Shown here: in pieces, positions 17 through 22,903 of the stretch
Position numbering within the stretch: the first letter of the stretch is position 1
Layout of the letters: every line of letters begins with the position of its first letter
DNA from: a virus
Strand: one strand, 5' to 3'
DNA length: 26,874 bases
IMG/VR virus record: IMGVR_UViG_3300021957_005217
Location: 1 to 26,874 of that record
Made by a program: the position numbers and the translations under genes
The notes under the pieces: generated by a model
Told to the model about the DNA's origin: nothing
Databases searched by the model: none
Seen by the model: the letters and a program-made list of their open reading frames with translations, nothing else

Positions 17-670
17 ATGAAACCACTAAACCTAATCCTAACCGGTGCTATCGCAGCAGCAACATTTACAGCATCACAAGCAGCTGTAACGTTAACATTG
101 GATAATGCTTTTGTAGCTAGTGATCCAGATTACACGATGACTCTTACCTTTGAAGAGACTAATCGTGCTAATGAAGTTAAGGTAACATTCAAAGCAGTTA
201 ATGTTGGTAGCCACTATGTTGATGGTGTTGCTCTTAACCTTCCAGAAGGACTTAACTACCAAGCAATTCAACTTGGTGGTGTAACTGCTGAAGAAGGTTT
301 CTTCCAAGCACCTAACATGCTTAAGCAAAGGGACAATCTACTTGGACCTAATGGTAACAATATTGGCATCTTCGATATCGGAGCTGGATTTGCTACCGGT
401 CGTAACAAGCCAGATAACGTTCTATTTACTACAAATGATTCAGTATCGTTCCTTGTTACCAGTACTGCAAATGGTGCTACCTTAAGTGTAGCAGACCTTG
501 CTGAGACATTTGATACGCCAACCGATACTTGGGTAGCAGCTGCTTCAGTTATTACCGCACCTAACTATTGTGCATGGTATACAGTAGGTTCAGCTACACC
601 AGTACCAGAGCCATCAACCGCTCTACTTGGACTTATTAGCCTTGCAGGACTTGCTCGTCGTAAACGATAA
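17..670 (+). CDS. Secreted PEP-CTERM-anchored protein
   Basis: A 217-aa exported protein. Residues 1-22 form a Sec-type signal peptide (MKPLN start, then an Ala/Thr-rich hydrophobic stretch ending SQA-A). The C-terminus carries a textbook PEP-CTERM signal: VPEPS at about residues 196-200, a short hydrophobic helix (ALLGLISLAGLA) and a final ARRKR basic cluster. In hosts with an exosortase, such proteins are cut at PEP and handed to the cell surface or extracellular polymer. The middle (residues 23-190) is beta-rich with no family I recognise. The protein is therefore expected to act at the envelope of the infected cell, not in the virion, though this is inference. It stands alone, is followed by a strong terminator, and converges with phoH. 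The start follows an A/T-rich stretch without a ribosome binding site. An acquired host gene is likely. Confidence 0.85.
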   Translation: MKPLNLILTGAIAAATFTASQAAVTLTLDNAFVASDPDYTMTLTFEETNRANEVKVTFKAVNVGSHYVDGVALNLPEGLNYQAIQLGGVTAEEGFFQAPNMLKQRDNLLGPNGNNIGIFDIGAGFATGRNKPDNVLFTTNDSVSFLVTSTANGATLSVADLAETFDTPTDTWVAAASVITAPNYCAWYTVGSATPVPEPSTALLGLISLAGLARRKR

Positions 671-689
671 CATTTAACCCCCAACTAAG

Positions 690-723
690 AGAGCCGCTAC
701 TTGATTGTAGCGGCTCTTTTTTT
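690..723 (+). terminator. Rho-independent terminator after the PEP-CTERM gene
   Basis: An 11-bp perfect stem (AGAGCCGCTAC at 690-700 pairing with GTAGCGGCTCT at 707-717) has a 6-nt loop and runs into seven T residues (717-723). It ends transcription of the PEP-CTERM gene and lies between it and the convergent phoH gene. On the minus strand the stem is not followed by a T tract, so it looks one-way. Confidence 0.92.
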
Positions 724-731
724 GTTTAAAT

Positions 732-1457
732 CTATCCAAGTCTTTCGCAGATATATCTCAAGATCTTACTACGAACAATCTCTGCATTACCAAACTTAAA
801 GGTGTAAATACCTTTCTCTTCACATTCAATACTATTGAATCTATCGAAGACATTCTTAAAGCCTGATTGCTTAACATCAGATTGTTTACCATCACCAAGT
901 ACAATGTATCTACTATTGCGACCAAAGCGAGTTAAGATTGTAGTTAGCTCACCCTTAGTAAGGTTTTGAGCTTCATCAACAATAACACATGTATTGTTAA
1001 ATGTAAGACCACGAACAAAGTTAACAGGTATTGCATCAATCAAACCTTTCGATTTGAGCATGCCACATGTACCTGGACCACAAAGTTCAGTTACCTTCTC
1101 AATAAGAGGCATCATATACGGAGAGAACTTATCATCAATCTCACCTGGGAGTGAACCTAAGCTCTTATCTGCTGACTCAACTACTGATCGAATATAAACT
1201 ATCTTCTCAACATCTTCGTTTTTTAGCATTTCAAGAGCGGCATACACAGCAATGTATGTCTTAGCGGTTCCAGCAAGACCATCTACAAAGGTCATTTGCG
1301 TACCACCCTCGTGGATTGAGTCGTAGAAGTCACGATGCTTTGGCTTCATATAGAATGGCTTTCTAATCTTGAAATCCATCAACCACTCTCCATTAAAGAT
1401 ATCTTCACCAATTTCCGGATCAATATCCACAGCTTGTTTCTTAGAACGTCTGCTCAT
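732..1457 (-). CDS. phoH: PhoH-like P-loop ATPase
   Basis: A 241-aa PhoH-family ATPase. The Walker A region reads GLAGTAKT (about residues 60-67), a variant of the usual GxAGTGKT in which the glycine before the lysine is alanine. Walker B is CVIVDEAQN (about 157-165). The block YIRSVVESADKSLGSLPG and the GDGKQSD block near the C-terminus are typical of the family. PhoH is a very common auxiliary gene in marine phages. It is a predicted RNA/NTP-dependent ATPase whose role in infection is not settled. It lies on the minus strand, divergent from queE, and ends facing the PEP-CTERM gene. The ATG is preceded (minus strand) by AGTATTAATAG, a weak relative of the start-proximal promoter motif seen elsewhere in the window. 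Confidence 0.93.
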   Translation of the reverse strand: MSRRSKKQAVDIDPEIGEDIFNGEWLMDFKIRKPFYMKPKHRDFYDSIHEGGTQMTFVDGLAGTAKTYIAVYAALEMLKNEDVEKIVYIRSVVESADKSLGSLPGEIDDKFSPYMMPLIEKVTELCGPGTCGMLKSKGLIDAIPVNFVRGLTFNNTCVIVDEAQNLTKGELTTILTRFGRNSRYIVLGDGKQSDVKQSGFKNVFDRFNSIECEEKGIYTFKFGNAEIVRSKILRYICERLG

Positions 1458-1563: not shown

Positions 1564-2322
1564 ATGGACTTAGATAAAGAAACTTTAATCCTTTCTGACG
1601 ATAAAATCTTTTATACCATCGAGGGTGAAGGTGAATTCGTTGGTCAGCGATCCCTATTTATGAGGATGGCGATGTGTAACCTAACTTGTATTGGGTTTGC
1701 ATCTGAAGACTCTCCTCATGGTTGTGACTCTTATGTCTCTTGGACTGTAAAGAACAAGATGACCTTCAATGAGATCTTCAAGTTAATGGAAGACAATAAC
1801 TGGATTGAGAAACTCGAGAAGGGTACTATCTGGAAACTTACTGGAGGTGAGCCTCTTATTCAACAAAAGCAATTGCTTAAGCTTGTAGATGAATTTATTT
1901 ATCGATATGGATTCGAACCTAAGATTGACTTTGAGACTAATGCTACCCTTATGCCTAATCCAAGATGGCATGATGAGTTTGGTGCTACCTTTACTACCTC
2001 ACCTAAGCTAACTACTAATGGTGATCCAGAAGAGAAGACTTATAAGCCAGAGGTACTAAAGTATCATAGAGAGATTGGTTCAGGCTTTAAGTTTGTTATC
2101 AATGACCCTGATGCTGATATCAAAGAGGTTTGGAATAAGTATGTTGAAGATGAGCATGGCATTAATGTACCTCGTGAGCGTATTTGGTTTATGCCTTGTG
2201 CTGGATCTCGTGAAGAGCATATTGAGAATGCTATAGCTGTTGTTGAGTATGCTAAAGCAATGCATGTTAACTTCTCACCTCGACTTCACTTATTAGTCTG
2301 GAATATGGCTCTTAAGGTGTAA
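1564..2322 (+). CDS. queE: 7-carboxy-7-deazaguanine synthase (radical SAM)
   Basis: A 252-aa QueE-family enzyme. QueE converts 6-carboxytetrahydropterin to 7-carboxy-7-deazaguanine on the way to preQ0 and needs SAM and a 4Fe-4S cluster. Visible marks are YTIEGEGEFVGQRS (substrate/Mg region, residues 17-30), the cluster cysteines C38, C42 and C54, the SAM-binding GGEPL (about 94-98) and a SPRLH...W C-terminal motif. The usual CX3CX2C cluster motif is here CX3CX11C, with an insert between the second and third Cys. The next gene is folE2, which makes the pterin precursor, but QueD and QueC are absent from this window. The ATG at 1564 is set by the promoter just upstream. An alternative is a related radical SAM enzyme of unknown substrate, which is less likely given the conserved N- and C-terminal motifs. 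Confidence 0.85.
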   Translation: MDLDKETLILSDDKIFYTIEGEGEFVGQRSLFMRMAMCNLTCIGFASEDSPHGCDSYVSWTVKNKMTFNEIFKLMEDNNWIEKLEKGTIWKLTGGEPLIQQKQLLKLVDEFIYRYGFEPKIDFETNATLMPNPRWHDEFGATFTTSPKLTTNGDPEEKTYKPEVLKYHREIGSGFKFVINDPDADIKEVWNKYVEDEHGINVPRERIWFMPCAGSREEHIENAIAVVEYAKAMHVNFSPRLHLLVWNMALKV

Positions 2323-2328
2323 TAATAG

Positions 2329-2356
2329 TTGATAACTAAAATCTATACTCTATAAT
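2329..2356 (+). promoter_or_regulatory. Sigma70-like promoter of folE2
   Basis: TTGATA (2329-2334), a 16-nt spacer and TATAAT (2351-2356). The folE2 ATG starts 8 nt further on, so the predicted leader is 0-2 nt. Confidence 0.82.
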
Positions 2357-2364
2357 ATAATTGT

Positions 2365-3405
2365 ATGTCAGATAACAAAAGTAACTACGAATGGCTCGGT
2401 GAGGATGAACTCTCGGGTGAAAAAGATAAGATCGCTCGTGAGATCATGGGTGGTGAATTGGCTGAAGGTTATGTACCTCCTTCGAGGGTATATGACGATC
2501 AGCTTAAGACCGATAAGAAGTATATCTCTTCTCTTCCTGATCTTCAGAATGGACCATCAAGCTTAATTCAAGGTGCTGCTGTACCTATTCAACAAGTTGG
2601 TATTCATAACTTCCGTTTGCCTCTTACTTATAAGAAGCGTGATGGTAAGACTGTTACCCTTGAGACTTCAGTAACTGGTTCAGTTAGTCTTGAGGCTCAT
2701 AAGAAAGGTATTAACATGTCTCGTGTGATGCGTTCTTTCTACGATCATAAGGATGAAGTATTCTCTATTAGTAAGATCCAAGAAGTGCTTGAGACTTATA
2801 AAGAGAACCTTGAGACCTTTGACTCTCGAATCATGCTTAAGATCTCCTATCCTATCAAGCAAAAGAGCTTGCGTAGTGGACTTGAAGGCTATCAATACTA
2901 TGATGTAGTCTTTGAAGGTGACCTTACTAAAGAAGGTGAGTTCAAGAAGTATATTCACTTTGACTTTGTTTATTCTTCTGCATGTCCTTGTAGCTTTGAG
3001 CTGAGTGAGCATGCTGAGAAGTATCGTAACCGTGCTACTGTGCCTCACTCTCAGCGCTCTGTCGCTCGTGTAAGTGTTAAGTTTGAAGATATGCTTTGGG
3101 TAGAAGACCTTCAAGAGCTCTGCCTTGCCGCTCTTCAGACTGAGACTCAGGTAATGGTTAAGCGTGAAGACGAGCAAGCCTTTGCTGAGAAGAATGGCTC
3201 TTATCTTAAGTTTGTTGAGGATGCAGTACGCCTTATGTATGAGAAGCTATCAGCTGACTCTCGTATTGTTGACTTTAAAGTCATTGCCTCTCATAACGAA
3301 TCTCTTCATAGTCACAATGCAGTGTCAGTAATCACTAAGGGAGTACCTGGTGGCTTTAGTGCTGGTGTTGCTCGTGACGTATTCGAATCTACTGGTTTGC
3401 GTTAA
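2365..3405 (+). CDS. folE2: GTP cyclohydrolase IB (FolE2 type)
   Basis: A 346-aa member of the GCYH-IB family. It converts GTP to 7,8-dihydroneopterin triphosphate, the entry step to folate and 7-deazaguanine synthesis, using a metal that need not be zinc. Family marks are PIQQVGI (74-80), KGINMSR (114-120), SACPCSFEL (205-213, metal-ligand Cys), PHSQRS (227-232, metal-ligand His), KFVEDAVR and ESLHSHNAV near the C-terminus. Most family members read KGxHMSR, so Asn at 116 in place of His is unusual. The first 65 residues form a charged, phage-specific extension. Pairing with queE suggests supply of pterin for 7-deazaguanine. A role in folate for thymidylate synthesis is the alternative. Confidence 0.88.
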   Translation: MSDNKSNYEWLGEDELSGEKDKIAREIMGGELAEGYVPPSRVYDDQLKTDKKYISSLPDLQNGPSSLIQGAAVPIQQVGIHNFRLPLTYKKRDGKTVTLETSVTGSVSLEAHKKGINMSRVMRSFYDHKDEVFSISKIQEVLETYKENLETFDSRIMLKISYPIKQKSLRSGLEGYQYYDVVFEGDLTKEGEFKKYIHFDFVYSSACPCSFELSEHAEKYRNRATVPHSQRSVARVSVKFEDMLWVEDLQELCLAALQTETQVMVKREDEQAFAEKNGSYLKFVEDAVRLMYEKLSADSRIVDFKVIASHNESLHSHNAVSVITKGVPGGFSAGVARDVFESTGLR

Positions 3406-4273: not shown

Positions 4274-4839
4274 AGTACCTCAAGAGTAAATCCAAGAGTA
4301 GTTGCTGACTTAGCAGCTACTGCTGTTGATAGATCTATTGCACTAAGGTCAAGGTAGTTGGTCTGCTTCTCTGATTCAACAAATTGTACAAGCTCACCTT
4401 CACCATTTAATGTTGCAGCTGATGGTATAACAAGGTAAGCAGCATTAGCAAAGTTAGTTACAAAGTTAAATCGAACAACTGAACCTTCAACTTCAACGGA
4501 TTGAATATTGCTACCTGATACTAACTTAGCACCTTGCTCATCATGAGCAGAGAGTGTTATAAGAGCTTTTGTAGTATTGCTTGTAACTTGTGCAACACTT
4601 GCTTCTACTGCAGCTGAAAGAGTATCGATATCTGCATACATTGTATTGATATCAGTAGAGTGCTGAGTAATGGTTGTACCGAACGTTGTATTGTCAAGAC
4701 CAATAACAAAGTTGTTGAAGTCCATAATGTTAGTACCATCATCTGTTTCGATGATCAACATATCACCAGCAGCAACCGAAAATGTTTCTGGAAGCTCTTT
4801 AATATTGTAGATGAGATTCTTATTATCAACGCAAGGCAT
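4270..4839 (-). CDS. Fibre-like virion protein (putative)
   Basis: A 189-aa protein, Thr/Ala/Val/Asp-rich, with no cysteine beyond Cys3. The N-terminal part contains AGDMLIIETDDGTNIMDFNNF (read in two parts: AGDMLIIETDDG, then TNIMDFNNF), a pattern I associate with small tail-fibre or virion proteins of marine myoviruses. Residues 60-100 look helical or coiled coil (DINTMYADIDTLSAAVEASV) and the C-terminal 90 residues look like a beta-sandwich head. It is a lone minus-strand gene with a late-type promoter octamer 5 nt before its ATG. That octamer argues for a late, structural role. Function is inferred only from composition and context. Confidence 0.5.
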   Translation of the reverse strand: MPCVDNKNLIYNIKELPETFSVAAGDMLIIETDDGTNIMDFNNFVIGLDNTTFGTTITQHSTDINTMYADIDTLSAAVEASVAQVTSNTTKALITLSAHDEQGAKLVSGSNIQSVEVEGSVVRFNFVTNFANAAYLVIPSAATLNGEGELVQFVESEKQTNYLDLSAIDLSTAVAAKSATTLGFTLEVL

Positions 4840-4896: not shown

Positions 4897-5703
4897 ATGA
4901 GTAAGATTGGTGTAGGAGTTATAACCTGTGATCGTATGGATATGTATCATGTCTGTATTAATTCAATCAAGGAAGACTGGTGTGATGAAATTGTTACTGT
5001 CGATGATGGTAGGAAAGACTATGTACTAGCTCCGAAAGGTGAATATATTAAGACTGATGGTGGTGTTGGTGTAGGAAAGGCTAAGAATGAAGCTCTTAAG
5101 CACCTTATGGATAAAGGATGTGACTATATTATTCTTGTTGAGGATGATATGAAGCTAACCAATAACATCTTTGAGGAGTATGTTAGAGCGCATAAGACAA
5201 CCGGCATCCATCACTTCATGTTTGCATACCATGGACCAGCTAACAAGGCAGGTATTAGTTATGGTAAGCCAGTTCCCCGTTTGGTATTTGACTACGGTCC
5301 ATTTGATGAGTGTCGTATTGCTCTCAACCAACATTGTGTAGGTGCTGTTACATTCTATACACGTGAGTCTCTAGAGAAGGTTGGTCTATATGATGAGAAC
5401 TTCACTAATGCATTTGAGCATGTTGATCACTCTTACCAGTTAGCTAAGCATGGCTTTAGTACCCCTTATTGGTGGTGGGCTGATATTGAGAATAGCTTAG
5501 ACTATGTAGTAGAGCAAAAGTGTTCTGAAGAGTCATCTGCTATTAGACCTCGTGCTGACTGGCAACCTAACATTCAAGAAGCCTTTGAATATTTTATGAA
5601 GAAGAATAATGTATCACCTGTACAGGTACCTGATACCCCTCAGCAAGAGGTTGTTAATATTATTAAAAAGTATAAGAAATTAATCAGTGAGCGATCTAAA
5701 TAG
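4897..5703 (+). CDS. GT-A fold glycosyltransferase (family 2 type)
   Basis: A 268-aa glycosyltransferase. The N-terminus (GVGVITCDRMDMYHVCINSI) matches the nucleotide-binding start of GT2-like enzymes, VDDGR (about 37-41) is the first acidic motif, and LVEDDM (about 89-94) is the metal-binding DxD-type motif. A GLYDENFTNAFEHVDHSYQL segment (about 168-187) is the usual C-terminal catalytic block with the acidic residue. No membrane segment is seen, so it would act in the cytoplasm on a nucleotide sugar. It is the first gene of the sugar operon and overlaps the next by 17 nt. Donor and acceptor are not readable from sequence. Confidence 0.82.
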   Translation: MSKIGVGVITCDRMDMYHVCINSIKEDWCDEIVTVDDGRKDYVLAPKGEYIKTDGGVGVGKAKNEALKHLMDKGCDYIILVEDDMKLTNNIFEEYVRAHKTTGIHHFMFAYHGPANKAGISYGKPVPRLVFDYGPFDECRIALNQHCVGAVTFYTRESLEKVGLYDENFTNAFEHVDHSYQLAKHGFSTPYWWWADIENSLDYVVEQKCSEESSAIRPRADWQPNIQEAFEYFMKKNNVSPVQVPDTPQQEVVNIIKKYKKLISERSK

Positions 5704-6397
5704 TGCCTATAACGGAGAAGGAGAAGATGACTTCTTCTCTTATATTAAAGATACCTGCAAGACTATTTTCGATGTTGGGTGCTTTGCTGGTACTTACGAA
5801 AATGGTGATCGTGCAGTTAATGTGTTCACCCATTTAGAAGATGTTGATGTTCATTATTTTGATCCTGTACCTGAATTTATTAATGAGGTTAGTAAACAGG
5901 TTAAAAATAGAGATCGTAGCTATCTAAATAAATTTGGCTTATCGAATAAAACAGGAGAGTTACCTTACTATACTGAAGTAATGTCTTTTGTAGAGCGTAG
6001 CAAAACATTACCTCACCGTAAGACTGAACCAGACCGTACGCTTAGTATTAAGAGAGGTGATGAGTATGTTAAAGACCATAATATTAAATCTATTGACTTT
6101 CTTAAGATTGATGTAGAGGGATTTGAAAAGGGTGTTATTGAAGGGTTCGGCAGCTTCATTAAAAATGTTAAAATTGTTCAATTCGAATATGGTGGTTGTT
6201 GGATTGATAATGAAGTAAAACTAGCAGAGGTTGTCAACCTTCTTAAGCAGGCAGGGTTTGCTAATTTTGGTAGAATATTTAAATCAGGTGTTATACCACT
6301 TGAAGAGTCATTACAAGATGATTATAAGTTTTCAAATATAGTCTGTCATAATACAAAGAATTACAAAAATTGGACAGATGACAAATTTAAAAAATAA
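5687..6397 (+). CDS. FkbM-family SAM-dependent methyltransferase
   Basis: A 236-aa methyltransferase starting at GTG (5687), inside the end of the preceding gene. TIFDVGCFAG (about 27-36) is the SAM-binding motif I. IDFLKIDVEGFEKGVIEGF (about 125-143) is the signature FkbM block, and VQFEYGG follows. FkbM enzymes put methyl groups on sugar hydroxyls and often sit in polysaccharide clusters, which fits the neighbours. It overlaps the next gene by 20 nt, indicating translational coupling. The likely role is O-methylation of a sugar in the glycan built by this operon. Confidence 0.83.
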   Translation: MSDLNSAYNGEGEDDFFSYIKDTCKTIFDVGCFAGTYENGDRAVNVFTHLEDVDVHYFDPVPEFINEVSKQVKNRDRSYLNKFGLSNKTGELPYYTEVMSFVERSKTLPHRKTEPDRTLSIKRGDEYVKDHNIKSIDFLKIDVEGFEKGVIEGFGSFIKNVKIVQFEYGGCWIDNEVKLAEVVNLLKQAGFANFGRIFKSGVIPLEESLQDDYKFSNIVCHNTKNYKNWTDDKFKK

Positions 6398-7145
6398 ATT
6401 AACATTTCTCATAGCAGCAAAAGTAGATCATGAAGATCGCATCCGTAATATCAGAACGACTTTGTCTTATCTCAGACATCACTTTGATGCTGATATTATT
6501 ATTAGTGAGCAAGATACTACAAGTAAGCTTCACGATATGTGCAAGGCTTTTCATTGTCGACATATTTATATTGAGACTGATGAGTTCTTTAACAGGCAGC
6601 GAGGAGTCAACCTTGCAGCAAAAGAAGCTACTACTCCAGTCATTGCTCATTATGACGCTGATATACTCTTAAGACCTGCTCAAATTAAAACCGCTACAGA
6701 AGCTATTGTTAGTGGGGCAGCTCAAATGGTTTATCCGTTTGATGGTAACTTTTATGATGTACCAGAAAAGTTCTTTAATGTTATTAATGAGACAAAAAAA
6801 CTTACTAACGTGAATCTCGATGAGTGTCAACTATTCAACTCACACTCTGTTGGTGGCGTTGTAATGTTTGATAGAGAGCATTACTGGAAGTGTGGTGGAG
6901 CCAACGAGCATTTTAAGAGTGTAGGGTATGAAGATAATGAGATTAATTCTCGCTTCAAAAAACTCGGTACAAAGATCATGCGTACGCCTTGGCCTCTATG
7001 GCACCTGACTCACTTTAGAGGTAATACATCATACGATCATAATCCACATGTTAACTTTAATAGAGATTACTGTCTTAAAATAGAAGCAATGAGTGAGGAA
7101 GAGTTACGTGAACATATTAATGAATGGGACTGGCACAAACTATGA
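6378..7145 (+). CDS. Glycosyltransferase, copy A (GT7C-like)
   Basis: A 255-aa GT-A glycosyltransferase. It has KVDHEDRIRNI at the N-terminus, a YDADILLRP block (about 93-101) with the DxD-type motif, and GGVVMFDREHYWKCGGANE (about 157-175) followed by VGYEDNEINSRF. The last segment resembles the galactosyltransferase C-terminal (GT7C) pattern that reads GGxxxxxxxxFxxxNGxxExxxGWGxEDxE. It is a close tandem paralogue of the next gene, with about 60 percent identity by eye over the first 127 aligned residues. The stop overlaps the next start as ATGA. Sugar specificity is unknown. Confidence 0.8.
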   Translation: MTNLKNKLTFLIAAKVDHEDRIRNIRTTLSYLRHHFDADIIISEQDTTSKLHDMCKAFHCRHIYIETDEFFNRQRGVNLAAKEATTPVIAHYDADILLRPAQIKTATEAIVSGAAQMVYPFDGNFYDVPEKFFNVINETKKLTNVNLDECQLFNSHSVGGVVMFDREHYWKCGGANEHFKSVGYEDNEINSRFKKLGTKIMRTPWPLWHLTHFRGNTSYDHNPHVNFNRDYCLKIEAMSEEELREHINEWDWHKL

Positions 7146-7894
7146 AAGATAAATTAACAATTGTAATTCCAATTAAGATCGATCACGAAGATCGGTTACG
7201 AAATGTCAACATCTCTGTTGCATATATTCGCCATTATTTTGATTGTGAGATTATTATCTGTGAACAAGATACAGAGAGTAAATTAATTGACCTTTGCAAA
7301 GAGCATAAATGTAAGCATCTCTTTATTGAGACAGATGAGTTCTTTAACAAGCTTAAGTTAGTTAATCTTGCTGTAAGAGAAGTTAATACACCAGCATTTG
7401 CCTTATATGATGCTGATGCTCTCCTAAGGCCTGAACAGCTCAAAGGGGCAACCAATGCAATTGTAAGTGGGAGAGCTCAAATGGTTTATCCGTACGACGG
7501 TAAGTTTTATGATGTACCTGAAAAGTTCTTTGATACTATTACAAGTACGAATGATCTTACAAAGATAGATCTTGACGAGTGTATTCTATTTAATCCTCAC
7601 TCTGTAGGTGGCTGTGTAATGTTTGATGTTAATCAATATTGGAAGTGTGGTGGCTCAAATGAAAACTTTAAGAGTGTAGGTTATGATGATCCAGAAATGT
7701 ATTCAAGGTTTCAAAAGCTTGGAACTAAAATAATGAGAACTGAAGCACCCTTATGGCATTTAACGCATTGGAGAGGTGAATCAAGCTTTAACCACAATCC
7801 ACATATTGAGCATAACAAAAGTATATATGCAAATGTGTTGAATATGACGCAAGAGCAGCTACAATCGTATGTAGATAATTTTAGCTGGGTATGA
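7142..7894 (+). CDS. Glycosyltransferase, copy B (GT7C-like)
   Basis: A 250-aa paralogue of the preceding gene. It has the same order of motifs: KIDHEDRLRNV, YDADALLRP, the shared AQMVYP.DG.FYDVPEKFF block, then GGCVMFDVNQYWKCGGSNE and VGYDDPEMYSRF. I chose the ATG at 7142 because it forms an ATGA overlap with the upstream stop and aligns with copy A. An in-frame ATG 18 nt earlier (7124) is possible. Differences lie mainly in helices around residues 55-75 and in the C-terminal tail, where donor or acceptor preference could have shifted after duplication. Confidence 0.8.
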   Translation: MKDKLTIVIPIKIDHEDRLRNVNISVAYIRHYFDCEIIICEQDTESKLIDLCKEHKCKHLFIETDEFFNKLKLVNLAVREVNTPAFALYDADALLRPEQLKGATNAIVSGRAQMVYPYDGKFYDVPEKFFDTITSTNDLTKIDLDECILFNPHSVGGCVMFDVNQYWKCGGSNENFKSVGYDDPEMYSRFQKLGTKIMRTEAPLWHLTHWRGESSFNHNPHIEHNKSIYANVLNMTQEQLQSYVDNFSWV

Positions 7895-8742
7895 TAACAA
7901 GCACAAGAATAGGAAGATATGGTAACCTCTGCAATAGCATGTTCCAGTATGCTGCTGTAGTTGCAATGGCAAAGAAGACAGGACTTGAGTATTGTATACC
8001 ACAAAACGAAACATACTACGAACCTAACTACGGTTGCAACAATACCTCCATATGGGATGGGTTTAAGATTAAGTCATCGGTATTACCAACTATAGAAACT
8101 TCAGCACCTAACCATGAACATCTAGTACCCAAGTTTAATGAGGTTGAGTTTCCTTTCGAGTATAAAGATATTCAAGTAGATGACTTTACAGACATGAAAG
8201 GTTTCTTTCAATCTGAGAAGTACTTTGAGAATGCTAATGATGAGGTGAGGAGGTCATTTGGATTTAAGGATGACCTACTAAAAGATCTACGTAAGAAATT
8301 TAAGTCAGGTCATTACCCGAGCCCACGTGAGTGTACATCCTTGCATATAAGGTTAGGTGACTATACACATAAGAGAGCTTATCACCCTGCACAACCAGCA
8401 TCGTATTGGAAGCAAGCAGTAGACGAAGCTGCTTTAGACTATATTGTTGTTTTCTCTGATGACATTGAACAAGCTAAGCGTATGTTTAAGGGCGATAAGC
8501 GTGTTATATATTCAGAAGAACAATGTCCTTTCGCCGCCCTCTACCACATGTCTCGCTGCAGGAATCATATCATCTGTAACAGTACCTTTGGGTGGTGGGG
8601 AGCTAAATTAGGGGAGTGGCATAATGAAGATGATAACTGGGCACCAGTTGATAAAACAATAGTAGCACCTAAAATATGGTTCGGACCTGCACACGATTTT
8701 AGCTCTGAAGACATTATACCGAACCGTTGGATAAAATTATGA
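7891..8742 (+). CDS. Alpha-1,2-fucosyltransferase-like enzyme (GT11)
   Basis: A 283-aa GT11-type protein. The N-terminal GRYGNLCNSMFQYAAVVAMAK is the family's opening GxLGNQxFQYA motif. LHIRLGDYTH (about 151-160) is the GDP-binding HxRxGD region. VVFSDDIEQAK (about 187-197) and CNSTFGWWGAKLG (about 230-242) are the later conserved blocks. GT11 enzymes move L-fucose, or close 6-deoxy sugars such as colitose, from the GDP sugar to an acceptor, normally a hexose. It joins the previous gene by ATGA and the next likewise. The GDP-sugar supply genes are about 1 kb downstream, which supports the assignment. Confidence 0.85.
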   Translation: MITSTRIGRYGNLCNSMFQYAAVVAMAKKTGLEYCIPQNETYYEPNYGCNNTSIWDGFKIKSSVLPTIETSAPNHEHLVPKFNEVEFPFEYKDIQVDDFTDMKGFFQSEKYFENANDEVRRSFGFKDDLLKDLRKKFKSGHYPSPRECTSLHIRLGDYTHKRAYHPAQPASYWKQAVDEAALDYIVVFSDDIEQAKRMFKGDKRVIYSEEQCPFAALYHMSRCRNHIICNSTFGWWGAKLGEWHNEDDNWAPVDKTIVAPKIWFGPAHDFSSEDIIPNRWIKL

Positions 8743-9569
8743 AGATATTCTTACAAGATGATTGTTTCGCGCATTGCGAATTCTCAAATAACCCACTACC
8801 AGTTAAGCAAAGAACAGATAAAGTTATCTGGGATAGATCTGATAACTATACTGAAGAAGATATTGTTGTATGGACTGATAGAAAGATTCCAAACGCAATT
8901 GATCGTAAGGGTCCTAACATTGCTTGGTTGATTGAAGCTATGCCTTATCATCAAGGTTACTACAACTTTGTTCATGAGAATAGAGATAAGTTTGATCAGA
9001 TATGGACTCATGATAAGCAGATGTTAGATAATTGCGACAATGCTAAATTTTTACCACTTGGTGGATGCTGGATTGATGAGTTTGATTGGGCAATGCATAA
9101 CAAGACGAAAGATTTTTCTATCATTGCATCGATGCATAAGTATTTACCAGGCCATAAGATACGGCATCAAATAGTTGCTGGTACTGAAGGTAAGGTTGAT
9201 CGTTGGGGTAGCGGCTATCAAGCAATGGATGATAAAATTGAAGGACTTAAAGACTATCGTTATACTTTCTGTATTGAGAACTTTCGAAAGGACTTTTGGT
9301 TTACAGAAAAGCTTATTGACTGCTTTGTAACTGGTACCCTTCCTATCTATTGGGGTTGCCCTTCTATTGGTAACTTGTTTAATCTTGACGGTATGTTATG
9401 CTTTGAAGAATTACAAGAGCTACCTAAGTTACTTAAAGGTTGTACTCCTGAATATTATGAGAGTAAGAAGGATGCCCTGAAGGAGAATTTTGAGTTAGCT
9501 AAACAATATAGACTTGCTGAGCTAAAAATACCTGACTATATCTATGAAGGTAACAAAATATTCAGTTAG
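8739..9569 (+). CDS. GT10-like fucosyltransferase
   Basis: A 276-aa protein. The key block is YRYTFCIENFRKDFWFTEKL then IDCFVTGTLPIYWGCPSI (about 174-211), the family-10 alpha-1,3-fucosyltransferase pattern of F.IENS....TEK....F..G..PIYWG, which binds the GDP sugar. The first half shows the acceptor-side Rossmann-like fold with a DKFDQIWTHDK segment. I placed the start at ATG 8739, which overlaps the upstream TGA (ATGA). A TTG four codons earlier is less likely. It is the last gene of the operon and ends just before the next promoter. Confidence 0.78.
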   Translation: MKIFLQDDCFAHCEFSNNPLPVKQRTDKVIWDRSDNYTEEDIVVWTDRKIPNAIDRKGPNIAWLIEAMPYHQGYYNFVHENRDKFDQIWTHDKQMLDNCDNAKFLPLGGCWIDEFDWAMHNKTKDFSIIASMHKYLPGHKIRHQIVAGTEGKVDRWGSGYQAMDDKIEGLKDYRYTFCIENFRKDFWFTEKLIDCFVTGTLPIYWGCPSIGNLFNLDGMLCFEELQELPKLLKGCTPEYYESKKDALKENFELAKQYRLAELKIPDYIYEGNKIFS

Positions 9570-9574
9570 TAGAG

Positions 9575-9603
9575 TTGACTATTCCAAGCTGCTTGTATAA
9601 ATA
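9575..9603 (+). promoter_or_regulatory. Hybrid promoter: -35 box plus T4-late octamer
   Basis: TTGACT (9575-9580) stands 15 nt before TATAAATA (9596-9603), the exact T4 late consensus. The octamer ends 5 nt before ATG 9609. It may be used both by the sigma70-type and by the late phage polymerase. Confidence 0.72.
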
Positions 9604-9608
9604 ATAGT

Positions 9609-9914
9609 ATGCCCATCGACAATACCACACCCGTAGTTGTACCAGCAGTGTCTGCAGTTCCAGAGTTGGAGTTTGATCAGCTATGGTTGCAGAGTATTAC
9701 AATTGAAGCACCTACACAAACTGAAGGAACCATCAACATTTCATCTGTTCCATATAGTAGTCTATCAGGAGCATTCGCAAATAACAATGAAGTAATTAAC
9801 ATCTATACAGATGAGCTTTGGTCAGCGGTAGGAGCACTTTCAACTGTAGCAATGGCAATGACAGCTATCTTTGCTGCTACGGAAGACTTGAGGACTTGGG
9901 TTGAAAATCAATAA
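9609..9914 (+). CDS. Small protein of unknown function, possibly virion
   Basis: A 101-aa protein that I do not recognise. It begins with a Pro/Val-rich stretch (PVVVPAVSAVPE), then a probable beta-strand region (FDQLWLQSITIEAPTQTEG, INISSVPYSS), and ends with an Ala/Met-rich helix (VGALSTVAMAMTAIFAATEDL, about 76-94) which is amphipathic to hydrophobic. No signal peptide is seen. The exact T4-late promoter octamer directly in front suggests late expression and so a virion or assembly role, which is inference. It separates the transferase operon from the nucleotide-sugar genes. Confidence 0.5.
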   Translation: MPIDNTTPVVVPAVSAVPELEFDQLWLQSITIEAPTQTEGTINISSVPYSSLSGAFANNNEVINIYTDELWSAVGALSTVAMAMTAIFAATEDLRTWVENQ

Positions 9915-9921
9915 TAATAAG

Positions 9922-9949
9922 TTGACATAATTACATTCACTATTATAAT
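9922..9949 (+). promoter_or_regulatory. Consensus sigma70 promoter of fcl
   Basis: Perfect TTGACA (9922-9927), a 16-nt spacer and perfect TATAAT (9944-9949). The GTG start is 7 nt beyond, so the mRNA should start at or one base before the GTG. This is the strongest promoter match in the window. Confidence 0.9.
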
Positions 9950-9956
9950 ATAGGTA

Positions 9957-10862
9957 GTGAGGGAAGATAGAATATTAGTGACCGGAGGAACCGGTATGGT
10001 GGGTAGGCATCTACAAGATCTTATCCCTAAAGCTACGTTTGTTGGTTCCAAGGACTATAACCTTGGTAATATATTTGCTGTACAAGCAATGTATAATGAT
10101 ATTGAACCAGATTGTGTCATTCATCTTGCTGCTAAGGTAGGAGGAATACAAGATAACATTGCAAATCCATTAGCATTCCTTGAGGATAACTTAGTAATGA
10201 ATACTAATGTTGTTAAAACTGCTAATGAGAATGGAGTTGAGAGGTTTATTGGCATACTTAGTACTTGTATCTACCCAGATAGACTTGAGGATAGTCAATA
10301 TCCAATGACAGAAGACTTGCTTCATGCTGGTCCTCCTACTCCAACTAACTTTGGTTATGGATATGCAAAGAGAATGCTCGGAGTTCATTTAGATACAATT
10401 AGGAACTCAACCGATAAGGATTATTTTTCCATTATTCCAAGCAATCTTTACAGTGAATATGACCATTTTGATGATGATACAAAGGCACATTTTGTAACTG
10501 CACTACTTAAGAAAATTAAAAACTCAAAAAATGGAATTGTTCCTTTATTTGGAACTGGGCTACCCTTGAGACAATTTATTCATGCTGAAGATCTTGCAAA
10601 AATTATTGCAAAGTGTGCAACGAGAAAGGAACAAACCATGACTAACTTCAATGTTTGTTGTGATGAGACACCAATGATCATGGAGATTGCAGAAGAAGGT
10701 CTTAAAGCAGCTGGTAGGGATTTGGAACTTCAGTTTGATGCATCTAAGCCTGATGGTCAATACCGAAAAGATTGTGATAACTCAAAGATGAGGGAACTCT
10801 TTCCAGACTTTGAGTTCCTATCACTTGAAGAAGGCCTACGTAGAGTTTATAAAAAATTGTAA
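9957..10862 (+). CDS. fcl: GDP-L-fucose synthase-like epimerase/reductase
   Basis: A 301-aa short-chain dehydrogenase/reductase of the GMER family starting at GTG. It has the NADP(H) site TGGTGMVG (9-16), IHLAAKVGGI (55-64), the catalytic set S102 and C104 in LSTCIYP, Y134/K138 in YGYAK, the conserved H178 and RQFIHAEDLAKI near 205. Fcl/WcaG turns GDP-4-keto-6-deoxymannose into GDP-L-fucose by 3,5-epimerisation and 4-reduction. The homologous ColC acts on the 3-deoxy substrate to give GDP-colitose. Because a ColD-like gene lies next to it, either reaction is possible. Its stop overlaps the next start by one base (TAATG). Confidence 0.85.
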   Translation: MREDRILVTGGTGMVGRHLQDLIPKATFVGSKDYNLGNIFAVQAMYNDIEPDCVIHLAAKVGGIQDNIANPLAFLEDNLVMNTNVVKTANENGVERFIGILSTCIYPDRLEDSQYPMTEDLLHAGPPTPTNFGYGYAKRMLGVHLDTIRNSTDKDYFSIIPSNLYSEYDHFDDDTKAHFVTALLKKIKNSKNGIVPLFGTGLPLRQFIHAEDLAKIIAKCATRKEQTMTNFNVCCDETPMIMEIAEEGLKAAGRDLELQFDASKPDGQYRKDCDNSKMRELFPDFEFLSLEEGLRRVYKKL

Positions 10863-11002
10863 TGAGTGAAAGAGATTGGAAATATGATACCTTCAAATTA
10901 GGAACATTTGGAGCAATAGTATTAGTTGTAACACTACCAGTTATTTTTATCGTGGCTACCATTGGCTCAGCTTTATCAATGTTATTCGGTAAGAAGAGTT
11001 GA
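10862..11002 (+). CDS. Small single-span membrane protein
   Basis: A 46-aa ORF with ATG overlapping the fcl stop by one base. The N-terminus is charged (MSERDWKYDTFK), followed by one strong hydrophobic helix (GAIVLVVTLPVIFIVATIGSA, about 17-37) and a short basic end (GKKS). It is predicted to sit in the inner membrane. The arrangement in the operon and clean coupling argue that it is real. The downstream degT promoter starts inside its last codons (10999). I do not recognise the family. It could be an anchor for the sugar enzymes or an unrelated host-takeover peptide. Confidence 0.6.
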   Translation: MSERDWKYDTFKLGTFGAIVLVVTLPVIFIVATIGSALSMLFGKKS

Positions 11003-11026
11003 TTATTGTAACGAGGCTTCTATAAT
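10999..11026 (+). promoter_or_regulatory. Sigma70-like promoter of the DegT-family gene
   Basis: TTGATT (10999-11004), a 16-nt spacer and TATAAT (11021-11026), with ATG 6 nt downstream (11033). Predicted leaderless. Confidence 0.85.
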
Positions 11027-11032
11027 ATTGGT

Positions 11033-12202
11033 ATGAGTATTGACCTCGTATCTGATACGATTGATAAAACTGACATCAGGCATCTTATTGAATGGCTTGA
11101 TAGTCCTGGTATGGATGTTCCACAACTAACTAAGGGACCCATTACTCCTATTTTTGAGCATAAGTTTGCCAATTGGTTAGGTAATAACAACTCCGTTTTT
11201 GTCAATAGTGGATCATCTGCTATCTTGTTAGGTCTTGCTGCACTTAAGTTTGGTGGTAAGCTAAAGAATAATAAGATTGTTGTACCTGATTTGAGCTGGG
11301 CTACTGATGTTAGTTCACCTCTTCTACTTGGTATGGATACTTATCTTGTTGATTGTAACATGCATAACCTCTCTGCCGATTGTGATCATCTTGAGCAATT
11401 ATTTAGAGAGGAAAGACCAGCAGCATTTATTCTTGTTTCGGTATTAGGACTTGTACCTAACATGCATCGCATTCACGAGTTATGCCAAAAGTATGATGTT
11501 CTATTGATTGAGGATGTTTGTGAGAGTATGGGTTCTAAGTGCATGGGTCAAAAGCTTGGTACATTTGGTATCATGAGCTTCTTCTCTCTATACTTTGGTC
11601 ACCATATCTCTACTATTGAAGGAGGTATGGTTGCAACTAACAATGCAGAAATCAATGATCTACTTCTTATGATGAGGTCACATGGATGGGATAGAGACCT
11701 TAGTAGTGAGAGAGCTGATGTTATTGCTGAAGAGAATGGTGTAGGTGAGTTTGATAGACTCTTCTCTTTCTACCTACCAGGGTTAAATGTTCGTGCTACT
11801 GACCTTCAAGCAGTTATTGGTTTGCGTCAAGTAGATAAGATTGATAACTTTGCTAAGATTCGTAATAAAAACTTCTTACACTTCAATGAGAGATTAGCTA
11901 ACTCAAATAGCTTGATTAAACCTAATCAACATCCTGGTGACTTTGTCTCAAGCTTCTGCTATCCTATATTGCTCAATAAACGTGATGAGTGTGTTGCAGA
12001 GCTTAAGGCTAATAACATTGCATGTAGGCCATTGATTGCAGGTTCAATTAGCAAGAGTCCAATGTGGAAGAAGTTTGGTAACTATACACCTAACAATAGA
12101 AATGCATCTACGATTGATAGACTTGGCTTCTATGTACCTAACCATCAAGGTATGACTACAAAAGATGTAGATAAGATCTCAGACATTATTTTAAAATACT
12201 AA
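11033..12202 (+). CDS. DegT/DnrJ-family enzyme, ColD-like sugar 3-dehydratase (putative)
   Basis: A 389-aa PLP-dependent enzyme of the DegT/DnrJ/EryC1/StrS fold. VNSGSSAILLGL (58-69) binds the cofactor phosphate, VPDLSWATD (84-92) is conserved, and IEDVCESMGSK (159-169) supplies the PLP-binding Asp. At the Schiff-base site the expected lysine is missing. The sequence reads LYFGHHISTIEGG (186-198), with His190/His191. This His replacement is the hallmark of the 3-dehydratases (ColD, RfbH/E1) that remove the C3 hydroxyl instead of adding an amine. RSHGWDRDL follows, also typical of that group. With gmd directly downstream and fcl upstream, the likely substrate is GDP-4-keto-6-deoxymannose, giving a colitose-type precursor. 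A 4-aminotransferase (GDP-perosamine) role is less likely without the lysine. Confidence 0.78.
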   Translation: MSIDLVSDTIDKTDIRHLIEWLDSPGMDVPQLTKGPITPIFEHKFANWLGNNNSVFVNSGSSAILLGLAALKFGGKLKNNKIVVPDLSWATDVSSPLLLGMDTYLVDCNMHNLSADCDHLEQLFREERPAAFILVSVLGLVPNMHRIHELCQKYDVLLIEDVCESMGSKCMGQKLGTFGIMSFFSLYFGHHISTIEGGMVATNNAEINDLLLMMRSHGWDRDLSSERADVIAEENGVGEFDRLFSFYLPGLNVRATDLQAVIGLRQVDKIDNFAKIRNKNFLHFNERLANSNSLIKPNQHPGDFVSSFCYPILLNKRDECVAELKANNIACRPLIAGSISKSPMWKKFGNYTPNNRNASTIDRLGFYVPNHQGMTTKDVDKISDIILKY

Positions 12203-13192
12203 ATGAAAACAGCACTAATAACAGGCATCAATGGGCAAGATGGTTCATATCTTGCAGAGTTACTTCTTGAGAAAGGTTATGAGGTATGGGGAACCATTCG
12301 TCGTAACTCTTCTCCAGAATATAATACAACTCGAGTAGATCATATCTTTAAGAGAGTTAATCTTGTATATGCAGACTTGACTGATATGTCTTCTCTTGTA
12401 AGTGTTTTACAAAAAGCTAAGCCAGTTGAGATTTATAATCTTGCTGCTCAATCACATGTACGAGTTAGCTTTGATGCTCCAATCTATACAGCAGAAGCTA
12501 CTGGACTTGGTACTCTTAACTTACTTGAAGCTATTCGTTTGACTTGTCCTAAAGCAAGAGTCTATCAAGCATCCTCAAGTGAGATGTTCGGTAATACAAT
12601 TGATGAGGATGGCTTTCAAAGAGAGACTACTCAACTCAATCCAGTAAGTCCTTATGGATGTGCAAAAGTATTCTCTTATAACATTTGTAACAACTACAAG
12701 AATAGTTACAATATGCATATCAGTAATGGTATACTTTTCAATCATGAATCACCAAGACGTGGTATCAACTTTGTAACTAATAAGGTTGTTCATGGTGCAG
12801 TAGATATTAAGCAAGGTCGTAAGAACACTTTGACTCTTGGTAACCTATCTGCAAGTCGTGATTGGGGTCATGCTAAAGACTATGTTAAGGCAATGTGGAT
12901 GATGCTCCAACAAGATGAGCCAGACAACTATGTTTGCTCTACTGGTGTATCGCATACAGTTCAAGATCTTGTTAACTATACTTTCGATGTACTTAGTGTT
13001 GATACAAATCTTATAAGGACTGCTCAACAGTTTGAACGACCAGAAGAACTACAGCATCTTAAAGGTGATTGTACTAAACTAAAAACTAAGCTTGGTTGGG
13101 AACCAACATACACTTTTGAGACAATGCTCGATGAGATGATATTTGTAGCTGCTAATAAGCTTAACAAAGATGTTGATACTCGCAAATTCTAA
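12203..13192 (+). CDS. gmd: GDP-mannose 4,6-dehydratase
   Basis: A 329-aa extended SDR. TGINGQDGSYLAELL (7-21) is the NADP-binding GxxGxxG with the QDG typical of Gmd. RRNSSPEYNTTR (33-44) binds NADP phosphate, LAAQSHVRVSF (80-90) is a Gmd hallmark, and the catalytic residues are in ASSSEMFG (123-130) and Y151/K155. GILFNHESPRRG (176-187) and GNLSASRDWGHAKDYV complete the family pattern. It forms GDP-4-keto-6-deoxymannose, the shared precursor of GDP-fucose, GDP-rhamnose, GDP-perosamine and GDP-colitose. GDP-mannose itself must come from the host or from genes outside this window. The ATG directly follows the upstream stop (TAAATG). The promoter of the next gene lies inside its 3' end. Confidence 0.95.
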   Translation: MKTALITGINGQDGSYLAELLLEKGYEVWGTIRRNSSPEYNTTRVDHIFKRVNLVYADLTDMSSLVSVLQKAKPVEIYNLAAQSHVRVSFDAPIYTAEATGLGTLNLLEAIRLTCPKARVYQASSSEMFGNTIDEDGFQRETTQLNPVSPYGCAKVFSYNICNNYKNSYNMHISNGILFNHESPRRGINFVTNKVVHGAVDIKQGRKNTLTLGNLSASRDWGHAKDYVKAMWMMLQQDEPDNYVCSTGVSHTVQDLVNYTFDVLSVDTNLIRTAQQFERPEELQHLKGDCTKLKTKLGWEPTYTFETMLDEMIFVAANKLNKDVDTRKF

Positions 13193-20785: not shown

Positions 20786-22903
20786 ATGATCCCAACACAT
20801 CCTTTATTTGGTAGACTGCATGTAACGTTTGTTAAGCCAGGCTCTGGCTCAAGCTCAGAATCACCAGACCCTATCCCGGAGGTCGGAACAGAGGCTATCT
20901 TTGCATTTGGAGCAGATTGGAAGTATCTATCACAGACAGGTGATCCTGGTGACTTTACTGCAACTGATTATGATGATTCAGCTTGGCCTAGTGGTCCAGG
21001 TGAGTTAGGATTTGGTGATGGTGATGAAGCTACAAACATAGGTAAGACAGCTACTAACATTGCTTACTTCTTCCGTAAGACAGTTGACATTACTTCAGGT
21101 AGTAAGTATGATGAGTATGACTTGAGTATCCTTTTTGATGATGGTGTTGTTGTTTATGTTAATGGAGAAGAGCAAGCAAGATCAGTTAACTGGGCTTCAG
21201 GTGCTATTGCTTGGAATCAATTAGCTACTGGCACTATTGCTGATAACGAAGTAATACCTGCAACAATTCCTGCTTCAGCATGGAATGATGGTGAAAATGT
21301 TATTGCTGTTCAAGTTTCAAACAACCAATCAGGTAGCTCTGATGTATCATTTAACATGAGTGTGGATGCAGTTAAGAATGCTGTACCTTATAGCCACATT
21401 GCAGGTCAGTATGCTGTATTCAATACCGCATCAGCAGTAGCTAACATTGTAGCTGGTCCTACAAGTCTTGATGAAATTAGTGGTATGACCTCCTTGGCAC
21501 TTACAACTAACATTGGTACATTTGCAATGATTGATGACGATGTTGATGATAGAATATTCTTTATTGATAGAGATGGTGCATCGCAAGGTGCTATGGTTCT
21601 TGAGAGCTATACATGGGATGATGGTGAAGCAATGTTCGGTTATACAGATCAGACAACCAATGTTAAATACTTAATGATTGGTGAGATTGGAGATAATGGT
21701 GCTGCATTCGCGACCAGGTCACTTATTAGAACAGTTGAGCCAGAAGTTGATGGATCTACATTTACTATTGCTGCATCTGCTTATGAAGTGATTGATTACC
21801 AATTCCCAGCTACACCGACATTTGTTTCAAGTCCAGGTGCTGGAACAAACAGAGGTGACTCAGAGGCTGCATTTGTATGTCCTATTGATGAGAGGATTTA
21901 CATCATAACTAAGAGAGAGCCAAAGCCAAGAGTCTATTCTCTACCATTACAGAGCTCTTATACAGGTACTCAAACCTTGACATACCATGGAGAAATTAAT
22001 GGTGTTGAGAACATGACGACAGGTCCAAGCTCTCCAACTCCAACAACAAATGCTACAGAAGCAACATTAAGTCCAGACTTTACAAAGGTTCTTATTAAGA
22101 ACTACGACAAGGTATTCCAATACTACAGAACAGATAATACAATTCCATGGACAACAGTTCTTACAGTTTCTTCACCAGTTGAAGATGAAAACTATGTTGG
22201 TTTAGGTTCTGGTCCTGGTCAAGAGCCACAAGGTGAGGCAATGACTTGGGATCCATCTGGCAATGGTTACTATACTACATCAGAATACAACGGAGGTGGA
22301 ACACTACCACTTTACTATTACCCTCTTTCAGCTGCACAGCCTGGTGTATACATAATAGGACAAGGACTTGAAGGTTATACAGGTGGTGAAGATACATGGA
22401 TCTGGAGTAAAGCAGCCAATGTAAATGATAATAACTCTTCTGCAGCTACACTTATTTCTGATAAGAACCCAACTGATGAAAGATGGGGATTCACTAAGTT
22501 TGGTGGTCTCGATACCCTCTTTGCTGATAACACAACAGTTACAGTAACGGATGCATCATTTACATTCTATGTCGATACTGAGGGTCAAGGTATTGCATTC
22601 CATGAAGCACTCTCCGCTATTGATGCATCAACAGTAACATACACAACTGTGGATGGAACAATGTCTCCTGGTATTGGTTATGATGCTGTAGCAATGGCAG
22701 AAGATCCACTTGCTGATAACTTTGTAGGTAGTGTTACTGTTAACTTCCCTGTATCAACAGTTCAGAATTGGATTAGAACTCCTGAGCAGAACTTTGGTTT
22801 CTGGCACCTTGCTACTCACTCATCAGATGGTCAGCAACTTGGATCCTTTGAAGCAGCATCAATCAGTCAAAGACCAACACTTAACTTTACTATATCCGTC
22901 TAA
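20786..22903 (+). CDS. Chimeric exoprotein-like protein in the virion block
   Basis: A 705-aa protein without a signal peptide. Residues 36-197 look like a galactose-binding-type beta-sandwich (DLSILFDDGVVVYVNGEE, WNDGENVIAVQV), a module common in large secreted proteins of Verrucomicrobiota and Planctomycetota. About 205-510 match a bacterial beta-propeller family: LMIGEIGDNGA, RTVEPEVDG, EAAFVCPIDERIYIITKRE, EATLSPDFTKVLIKNYDKVFQY. From about 520 the pattern is DNRLRE-like: GLEGYTGGEDTWIW, ATLISDKNPTDERWGFTKF, VTDASFTFYVDT. The late promoter and position between portal and neck genes suggest a virion adhesin or decoration protein recruited from host-type exoprotein domains. It ends in a bidirectional terminator. 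Domain names are from recalled patterns. Confidence 0.65.
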   Translation: MIPTHPLFGRLHVTFVKPGSGSSSESPDPIPEVGTEAIFAFGADWKYLSQTGDPGDFTATDYDDSAWPSGPGELGFGDGDEATNIGKTATNIAYFFRKTVDITSGSKYDEYDLSILFDDGVVVYVNGEEQARSVNWASGAIAWNQLATGTIADNEVIPATIPASAWNDGENVIAVQVSNNQSGSSDVSFNMSVDAVKNAVPYSHIAGQYAVFNTASAVANIVAGPTSLDEISGMTSLALTTNIGTFAMIDDDVDDRIFFIDRDGASQGAMVLESYTWDDGEAMFGYTDQTTNVKYLMIGEIGDNGAAFATRSLIRTVEPEVDGSTFTIAASAYEVIDYQFPATPTFVSSPGAGTNRGDSEAAFVCPIDERIYIITKREPKPRVYSLPLQSSYTGTQTLTYHGEINGVENMTTGPSSPTPTTNATEATLSPDFTKVLIKNYDKVFQYYRTDNTIPWTTVLTVSSPVEDENYVGLGSGPGQEPQGEAMTWDPSGNGYYTTSEYNGGGTLPLYYYPLSAAQPGVYIIGQGLEGYTGGEDTWIWSKAANVNDNNSSAATLISDKNPTDERWGFTKFGGLDTLFADNTTVTVTDASFTFYVDTEGQGIAFHEALSAIDASTVTYTTVDGTMSPGIGYDAVAMAEDPLADNFVGSVTVNFPVSTVQNWIRTPEQNFGFWHLATHSSDGQQLGSFEAASISQRPTLNFTISV

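Follow-up and report, generated by a model that had tools for sequence, protein, structure and literature searches.

What does a T4-like phage gain from a protein that bears a bacterial surface-sorting signal? The question is raised by the plus-strand open reading frame at positions 17–670 of the window, a complete IMG/VR record that consists of one linear fragment of 26,874 bp. The frame encodes 217 residues, beginning with what resembles a Sec signal peptide and ending in a PEP-CTERM tail. Taken whole, the explanation that accounts best for this gene, and that on balance we favour, is that it is a moron of a probable Verrucomicrobiales phage whose product would be sorted by the host exosortase and would change the infected cell's surface, perhaps excluding competitors.

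The phage and its PEP-CTERM protein

The window carries the genes of a T4-like phage, as the initial annotation had proposed. It encodes a gp20-type portal (Portal_T4, E 3.5e-103) and an S77 prohead protease (Peptidase_S77, E 5.4e-32), together with a sheath stabiliser, a head closure protein and a head-tail adaptor. The portal is only ~30% identical to the portals of cultured phages. Adjoining the portal gene, positions 20786–22903 encode a 705-residue protein that has a weak CBM-like stretch and no PHROG match. A sugar cassette (4897–13192) holds GT2/GT7-like, GT11 and GT10-like (fucosyltransferase) genes and genes for an FkbM methyltransferase, a GDP-fucose-synthase-like epimerase, a DegT aminotransferase and a GDP-mannose 4,6-dehydratase.

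The 217-residue protein has three parts, all encoded on the plus strand. Residues 1–22 (MKPLNLILTGAIAAATFTASQA, positions 17–82) form a putative signal peptide, followed by AVT at a putative cleavage site placed by inspection; inspection also indicates that this architecture is common to all relatives, with differing residues. Residues 23–195 (positions 83–601) make up the mature, presumably extracytoplasmic domain, which is predicted to be beta-rich. The last 22 residues (196–217, VPEPSTALLGLISLAGLARRKR, positions 602–667) comprise the PEP motif (VPEPS), a hydrophobic stretch and a terminal basic cluster, RRKR. Pfam PF07589 (PEP-CTERM) matches residues 195–217 with 23.0 bits (E 7.8e-5), above its gathering cut-off of 20.7 bits. 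The NCBIfam model TIGR02595, which has a cut-off of 16 bits, scores just below it on the whole protein in hmmscan (14.5 bits) but above it in a six-frame genome search of the contig (19 bits) and on four relatives (20.9–21 bits). The frame encodes the apparent signal peptide and the PEP-CTERM tail that the initial annotation described, although agreement with TIGR02595 depends on the search used, and the end given there as ARRKR is present and reads more fully ...LARRKR.

The mature domain is a different matter. No family match or known functional relative was found for it, and it has no detectable relatives beyond its own phage group. A scan of the genome collection returned no whole-protein relatives in cellular genomes, and cultured phages gave no match to the PEP-CTERM protein. 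Matches in 289 Verrucomicrobiales genomes, considered as whole-protein relatives, proved to be driven by the tail, with no evident common mature domain. A PDB sequence match to a tetracycline-modifying enzyme (E 0.04) was judged to be chance. The structure models of the domain are poor (mean pLDDT 53), so that the fold is uninformative on function; searches with these low-confidence models gave generic beta-sandwich matches only (Z 5.4–6.5), the weak hits being carbohydrate-binding modules, cohesins and adhesins. With low confidence, the modelled domain is probably a beta-sandwich.

The locus and its relatives

Among 2.9 million viral contigs scanned, four others from IMG/VR (L002–L005) carry the gene, 78–80% identical; together with the window they represent three distinct protein sequences. 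In L005, a 35-kb contig, the PEP-CTERM gene comes after a pyrimidine-dimer-glycosylase-like gene and is followed by phoH, queE and folE2, ordered as in the window, and L004 has this arrangement as far as phoH, which lies near the end of that contig. Window and L005 share 87% DNA identity across the 3.3 kb that hold the PEP-CTERM gene, phoH, queE and folE2. Both the window (1564–3405) and L005 (6599–7345) have 7-deazaguanine pathway genes (queE-like, folE2 and queD), which may point to modified phage DNA.

Selection appears to act on the gene. By the NG86 method, dN/dS is 0.173/0.642 between the window and L005, 0.060/0.494 between L005 and L004, and 0.133/0.702 for the tail alone, the last on only 22 codons; the whole-gene ratios of ~0.1–0.3 are well below 1. 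Among the three distinct phage sequences the PEP motif and RRKR are invariant, the hydrophobic helix and the signal peptide are variable, and the mature domain (~170 residues) is 82–83% identical between relatives. Exact retention of the PEP motif and RRKR, with dN/dS well below 1, argues against a chance occurrence of the tail. The gene does lie at the contig's extreme left end (position 17), where one might suspect a chimeric assembly or a host gene that was captured and no longer works, but we regard the probability of either as negligible: four other contigs hold the gene in context, L004 and L005 have phage genes on both of its sides where the initial annotation had feared bacterial chromosome on the left, base composition is unchanged at the gene, and the dN/dS values are those of a constrained sequence.

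More distant relatives, fetched with phoH and the glycosylase-like gene as baits, lack the PEP-CTERM gene at this site. Five of them (L155, L156, L159, L160 and L161) show an empty site, at which phoH and the glycosylase-like gene point towards each other and overlap at their ends. Four others (L009, L010, L013 and L014) have a different phoH neighbourhood, again without the gene, and L009 ends shortly past phoH. The gap between the two flanking genes is ~1.0 kb in L005 and ~1.2 kb in L004, and is occupied by a gene for a 72-residue proline-rich protein and by the PEP-CTERM gene. Its right boundary in the window is the phoH-like gene (732–1457, minus strand; PF02562, E 3.6e-49). Between the convergent PEP-CTERM and phoH genes lies an intrinsic terminator (690–724, plus strand), read directly as an 11-bp perfect stem, AGAGCCGCTAC...GTAGCGGCTCT, followed by a T-run; this strong terminator is found within the insert in L005 as well as in the window. 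Because the distant relatives show an empty site with overlapping convergent flanking genes, we read the PEP-CTERM gene as part of an accessory insert (a moron) of 1.0–1.2 kb, with its own terminator, in one lineage of uncultured marine T4-like phages. Loss of the gene from the other lineages is formally still an alternative. Conservation at this locus is thus partial, the gene being kept in close relatives and absent from more distant ones.

The 72-residue protein encoded upstream of the PEP-CTERM gene (L005:9683–9901; L004:9571–9940) has a hydrophobic N-terminus and no family match; the window begins downstream of the region that matches its gene. L004 may encode extra tiny membrane peptides upstream of the PEP-CTERM gene. 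Many genes of these phages have promoter-like boxes, TATAAATA or AAGGAAC..TATAATTA, 5–12 bases before the ATG and no Shine-Dalgarno sequence (window positions 4839, 9609, 14999, 23343 and 25035; L005 positions 186, 4259, 7885, 9088, 13437 and 19707), an arrangement which suggests that phage mRNAs are leaderless or have very short leaders. The PEP-CTERM gene of L002–L005 departs from this pattern, with an A/C-rich leader in place of such a box.

The sorting tail and the host

A degenerate tail search over 84,980 species, one genome each, returned 25 confirmed loci, 23 of them with Verrucomicrobiota names; the peptide pattern derives from the phage tail itself, so that the search maps where that tail occurs and not the absence of PEP-CTERM from other groups. 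All of the Verrucomicrobiota loci that carry an order, family or genus name belong to the Verrucomicrobiales, and the names include Akkermansiaceae, Roseibacillus, Haloferula, Prosthecobacter and Luteolibacter. One locus outside the 23 is labelled Kuenenia (66% G+C), which is probably a binning error. PEP-CTERM matches number 5–30 per genome in eight tail-bearing genomes, and the exosortase (PF09721) is present in seven of the eight tail-bearing Verrucomicrobiales genomes tested.

The likeness is close. Host tails such as IPEPSSALLGLLGLAGLAFRRRR are nearly identical to the phage tails VPEPSTALLGLISLAGLARRKR and VPEPSSALLGLLGLGALARRKR, while the rest of the host proteins differs, and three Verrucomicrobiales genomes match at the DNA level within window positions 590–669. 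Verrucomicrobiales PEP-CTERM proteins (PF07589/TIGR02595; EpsH/Xrt exosortase) combine, as the phage protein appears to, a signal peptide, a small mature domain and a VPEPS-helix-RRKR tail. The leaders of their genes likewise have no Shine-Dalgarno sequence: the A/C-rich leader of the phage gene in L002–L005 resembles that of an Akkermansiaceae PEP-CTERM gene (L023). Unlike these proteins, the phage version is encoded by a T4-like phage and has a mature domain without a relative in the 289 genomes and the genome-collection scan. The PEP-CTERM tail matches Verrucomicrobiales tails, which points, if indirectly, to a probable host in the Verrucomicrobiales. An exosortase-bearing host had been predicted at the outset; the tail and the PF09721 matches support that prediction and narrow it to one order.

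Other routes to the host gave little. Phage G+C is ~38%, against 49–67% for most matching host loci, one of which (L034) also has 38%. No CRISPR-spacer-like match to the first 20 kb was found in 387 Verrucomicrobiales genomes, and a DNA search of Verrucomicrobiales genomes matched only a conserved GDP-mannose dehydratase region and the PEP tail. We found no tRNA in the window, no exosortase in the phage contigs G000 and G012 (both fragments), and no binning link to a host through phage genes in MAGs. A phage-like contig binned in a Verrucomicrobiales genome (L069, G305:C38) encodes a 44% identical PhoH, but was rejected as a host link because it is a different phage; this contig, distant from the window phage, features a second PhoH, a terminase with an intein-like insert and a portal. 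To our knowledge, few marine phages are known for the Verrucomicrobiales. The tail offers a sequence-only host signature for uncultured phages, pointing here to this order, and supplies a short, testable substrate for a poorly studied exosortase system.

A proposed role at the infected cell's surface

A signal peptide is a constant feature of PEP-CTERM proteins, and an exosortase is present in species that encode them (PMC3237569). The literature links these proteins to the cell surface, the matrix and aggregation (PMC9850573; PMC4960237), and in Nostoc punctiforme both motility and biofilm formation depend on an exosortase (PMC12188702). By extension, export and sorting by the host are to be expected of the phage protein, and it is quite likely, judging from its signals, to be an exosortase-sorted surface protein of a Verrucomicrobiales phage. 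Made during infection, it would be carried across the inner membrane by Sec and held in the membrane by its tail. The host exosortase would then recognise and remove the tail, so that the beta-rich domain ends up at the cell surface or in the exopolymer layer, which it may alter; we infer this processing and location from the two signals. The altered surface would hinder adsorption or DNA entry of competing phages, that is, bring about superinfection exclusion or receptor masking.

Exclusion or masking as the protein's purpose is a tentative proposal, drawn from analogy. Two considerations favour it: phages are well documented to use exclusion lipoproteins exposed at the surface (PMC3952083), and the cell in which the protein is made is one that the phage will lyse. 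Ltp of Streptococcus phage TP-J34 (PMC3952083) offers a comparison in presumed mode of working alone, no sequence relation being known: it too is a small accessory protein of a phage, exported by means of a signal and held by an anchor that the host processes, as is proposed for the window protein. However, the anchor of Ltp is a lipobox and that of the window protein an exosortase tail, and TP-J34 is temperate whereas the window phage is T4-like and presumably lytic. Superinfection exclusion tends to benefit temperate phages most, and T4-like phages are generally lytic; both points count against exclusion.

The main rival is that the displayed protein is an adhesin or matrix protein, which would make infected cells adhere to one another, to particles or to exopolysaccharide and so shift the place where progeny are released. 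Host PEP-CTERM proteins and exopolysaccharide are needed for flocs in Aquincola and Zoogloea (PMC9850573, PMC9012009), the weak fold matches include carbohydrate-binding modules, cohesins and adhesins, and the window contains a sugar cassette with fucosyltransferase and GDP-mannose-dehydratase genes. Yet those fold matches (Z 5.4–6.5, from a low-confidence model) go no further than a common beta-sandwich, no known adhesin proved related in sequence, and the cassette, at least 4 kb away, is only a candidate link. We consider this role unlikely, if worth keeping in view. It is more doubtful still that the tail is no more than a membrane anchor and leaves the protein, unprocessed by exosortase, in the inner membrane and exposed to the periplasm, where it could influence the timing of lysis, the entry of DNA or a protein of the envelope. 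A signal peptide and a C-terminal hydrophobic helix would suffice for that topology, and further small secreted or membrane peptides are encoded just upstream in L004 and L005; but an anchor alone needs neither a PEP motif that stays invariant while the helix varies nor a match to the host's sorting dialect. Very improbable, finally, is that the protein ties up the host exosortase, as a decoy substrate or an inhibitor, and thereby keeps the host's surface proteins from being displayed: it carries the substrate signal and could be made in large amounts during infection, but a pure competitor has no need of an entire conserved mature domain.

If exosortase sorting of the phage protein is real, phages exploit a whole host surface-sorting pathway, a use so far undescribed in the open-access literature, where we found no published report of a phage-encoded PEP-CTERM protein. 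The initial annotation likewise knew of no characterised example, but this protein does not stand alone. No Akkermansia-type tails were confirmed in viral contigs; a search with a general PEP-CTERM tail, however, turned up one prophage-like contig, L171 (IMGVR_UViG_2751185896_000001). In it, three PEP-CTERM genes (5616–8953; PF07589 31.5, 25.4 and 21.8 bits) are embedded among genes for packaging, flanked by a minor-tail-Z-like gene on one side and by genes for a terminase GpA and a lambda-type portal on the other. This contig differs from the window phage in G+C (62.5%), tail type (PEPSTWAMM...), mature domains and phage type. Three such genes in an unrelated contig suggest that phage-borne PEP-CTERM genes probably arose more than once. 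With slightly more doubt than confidence, we propose that lytic T4-like phages of Verrucomicrobiales display a protein through the host exosortase, and that phage PEP-CTERM genes form a recurrent, unrecognised surface-remodelling class acquired independently by T4-like and lambda-like phages.
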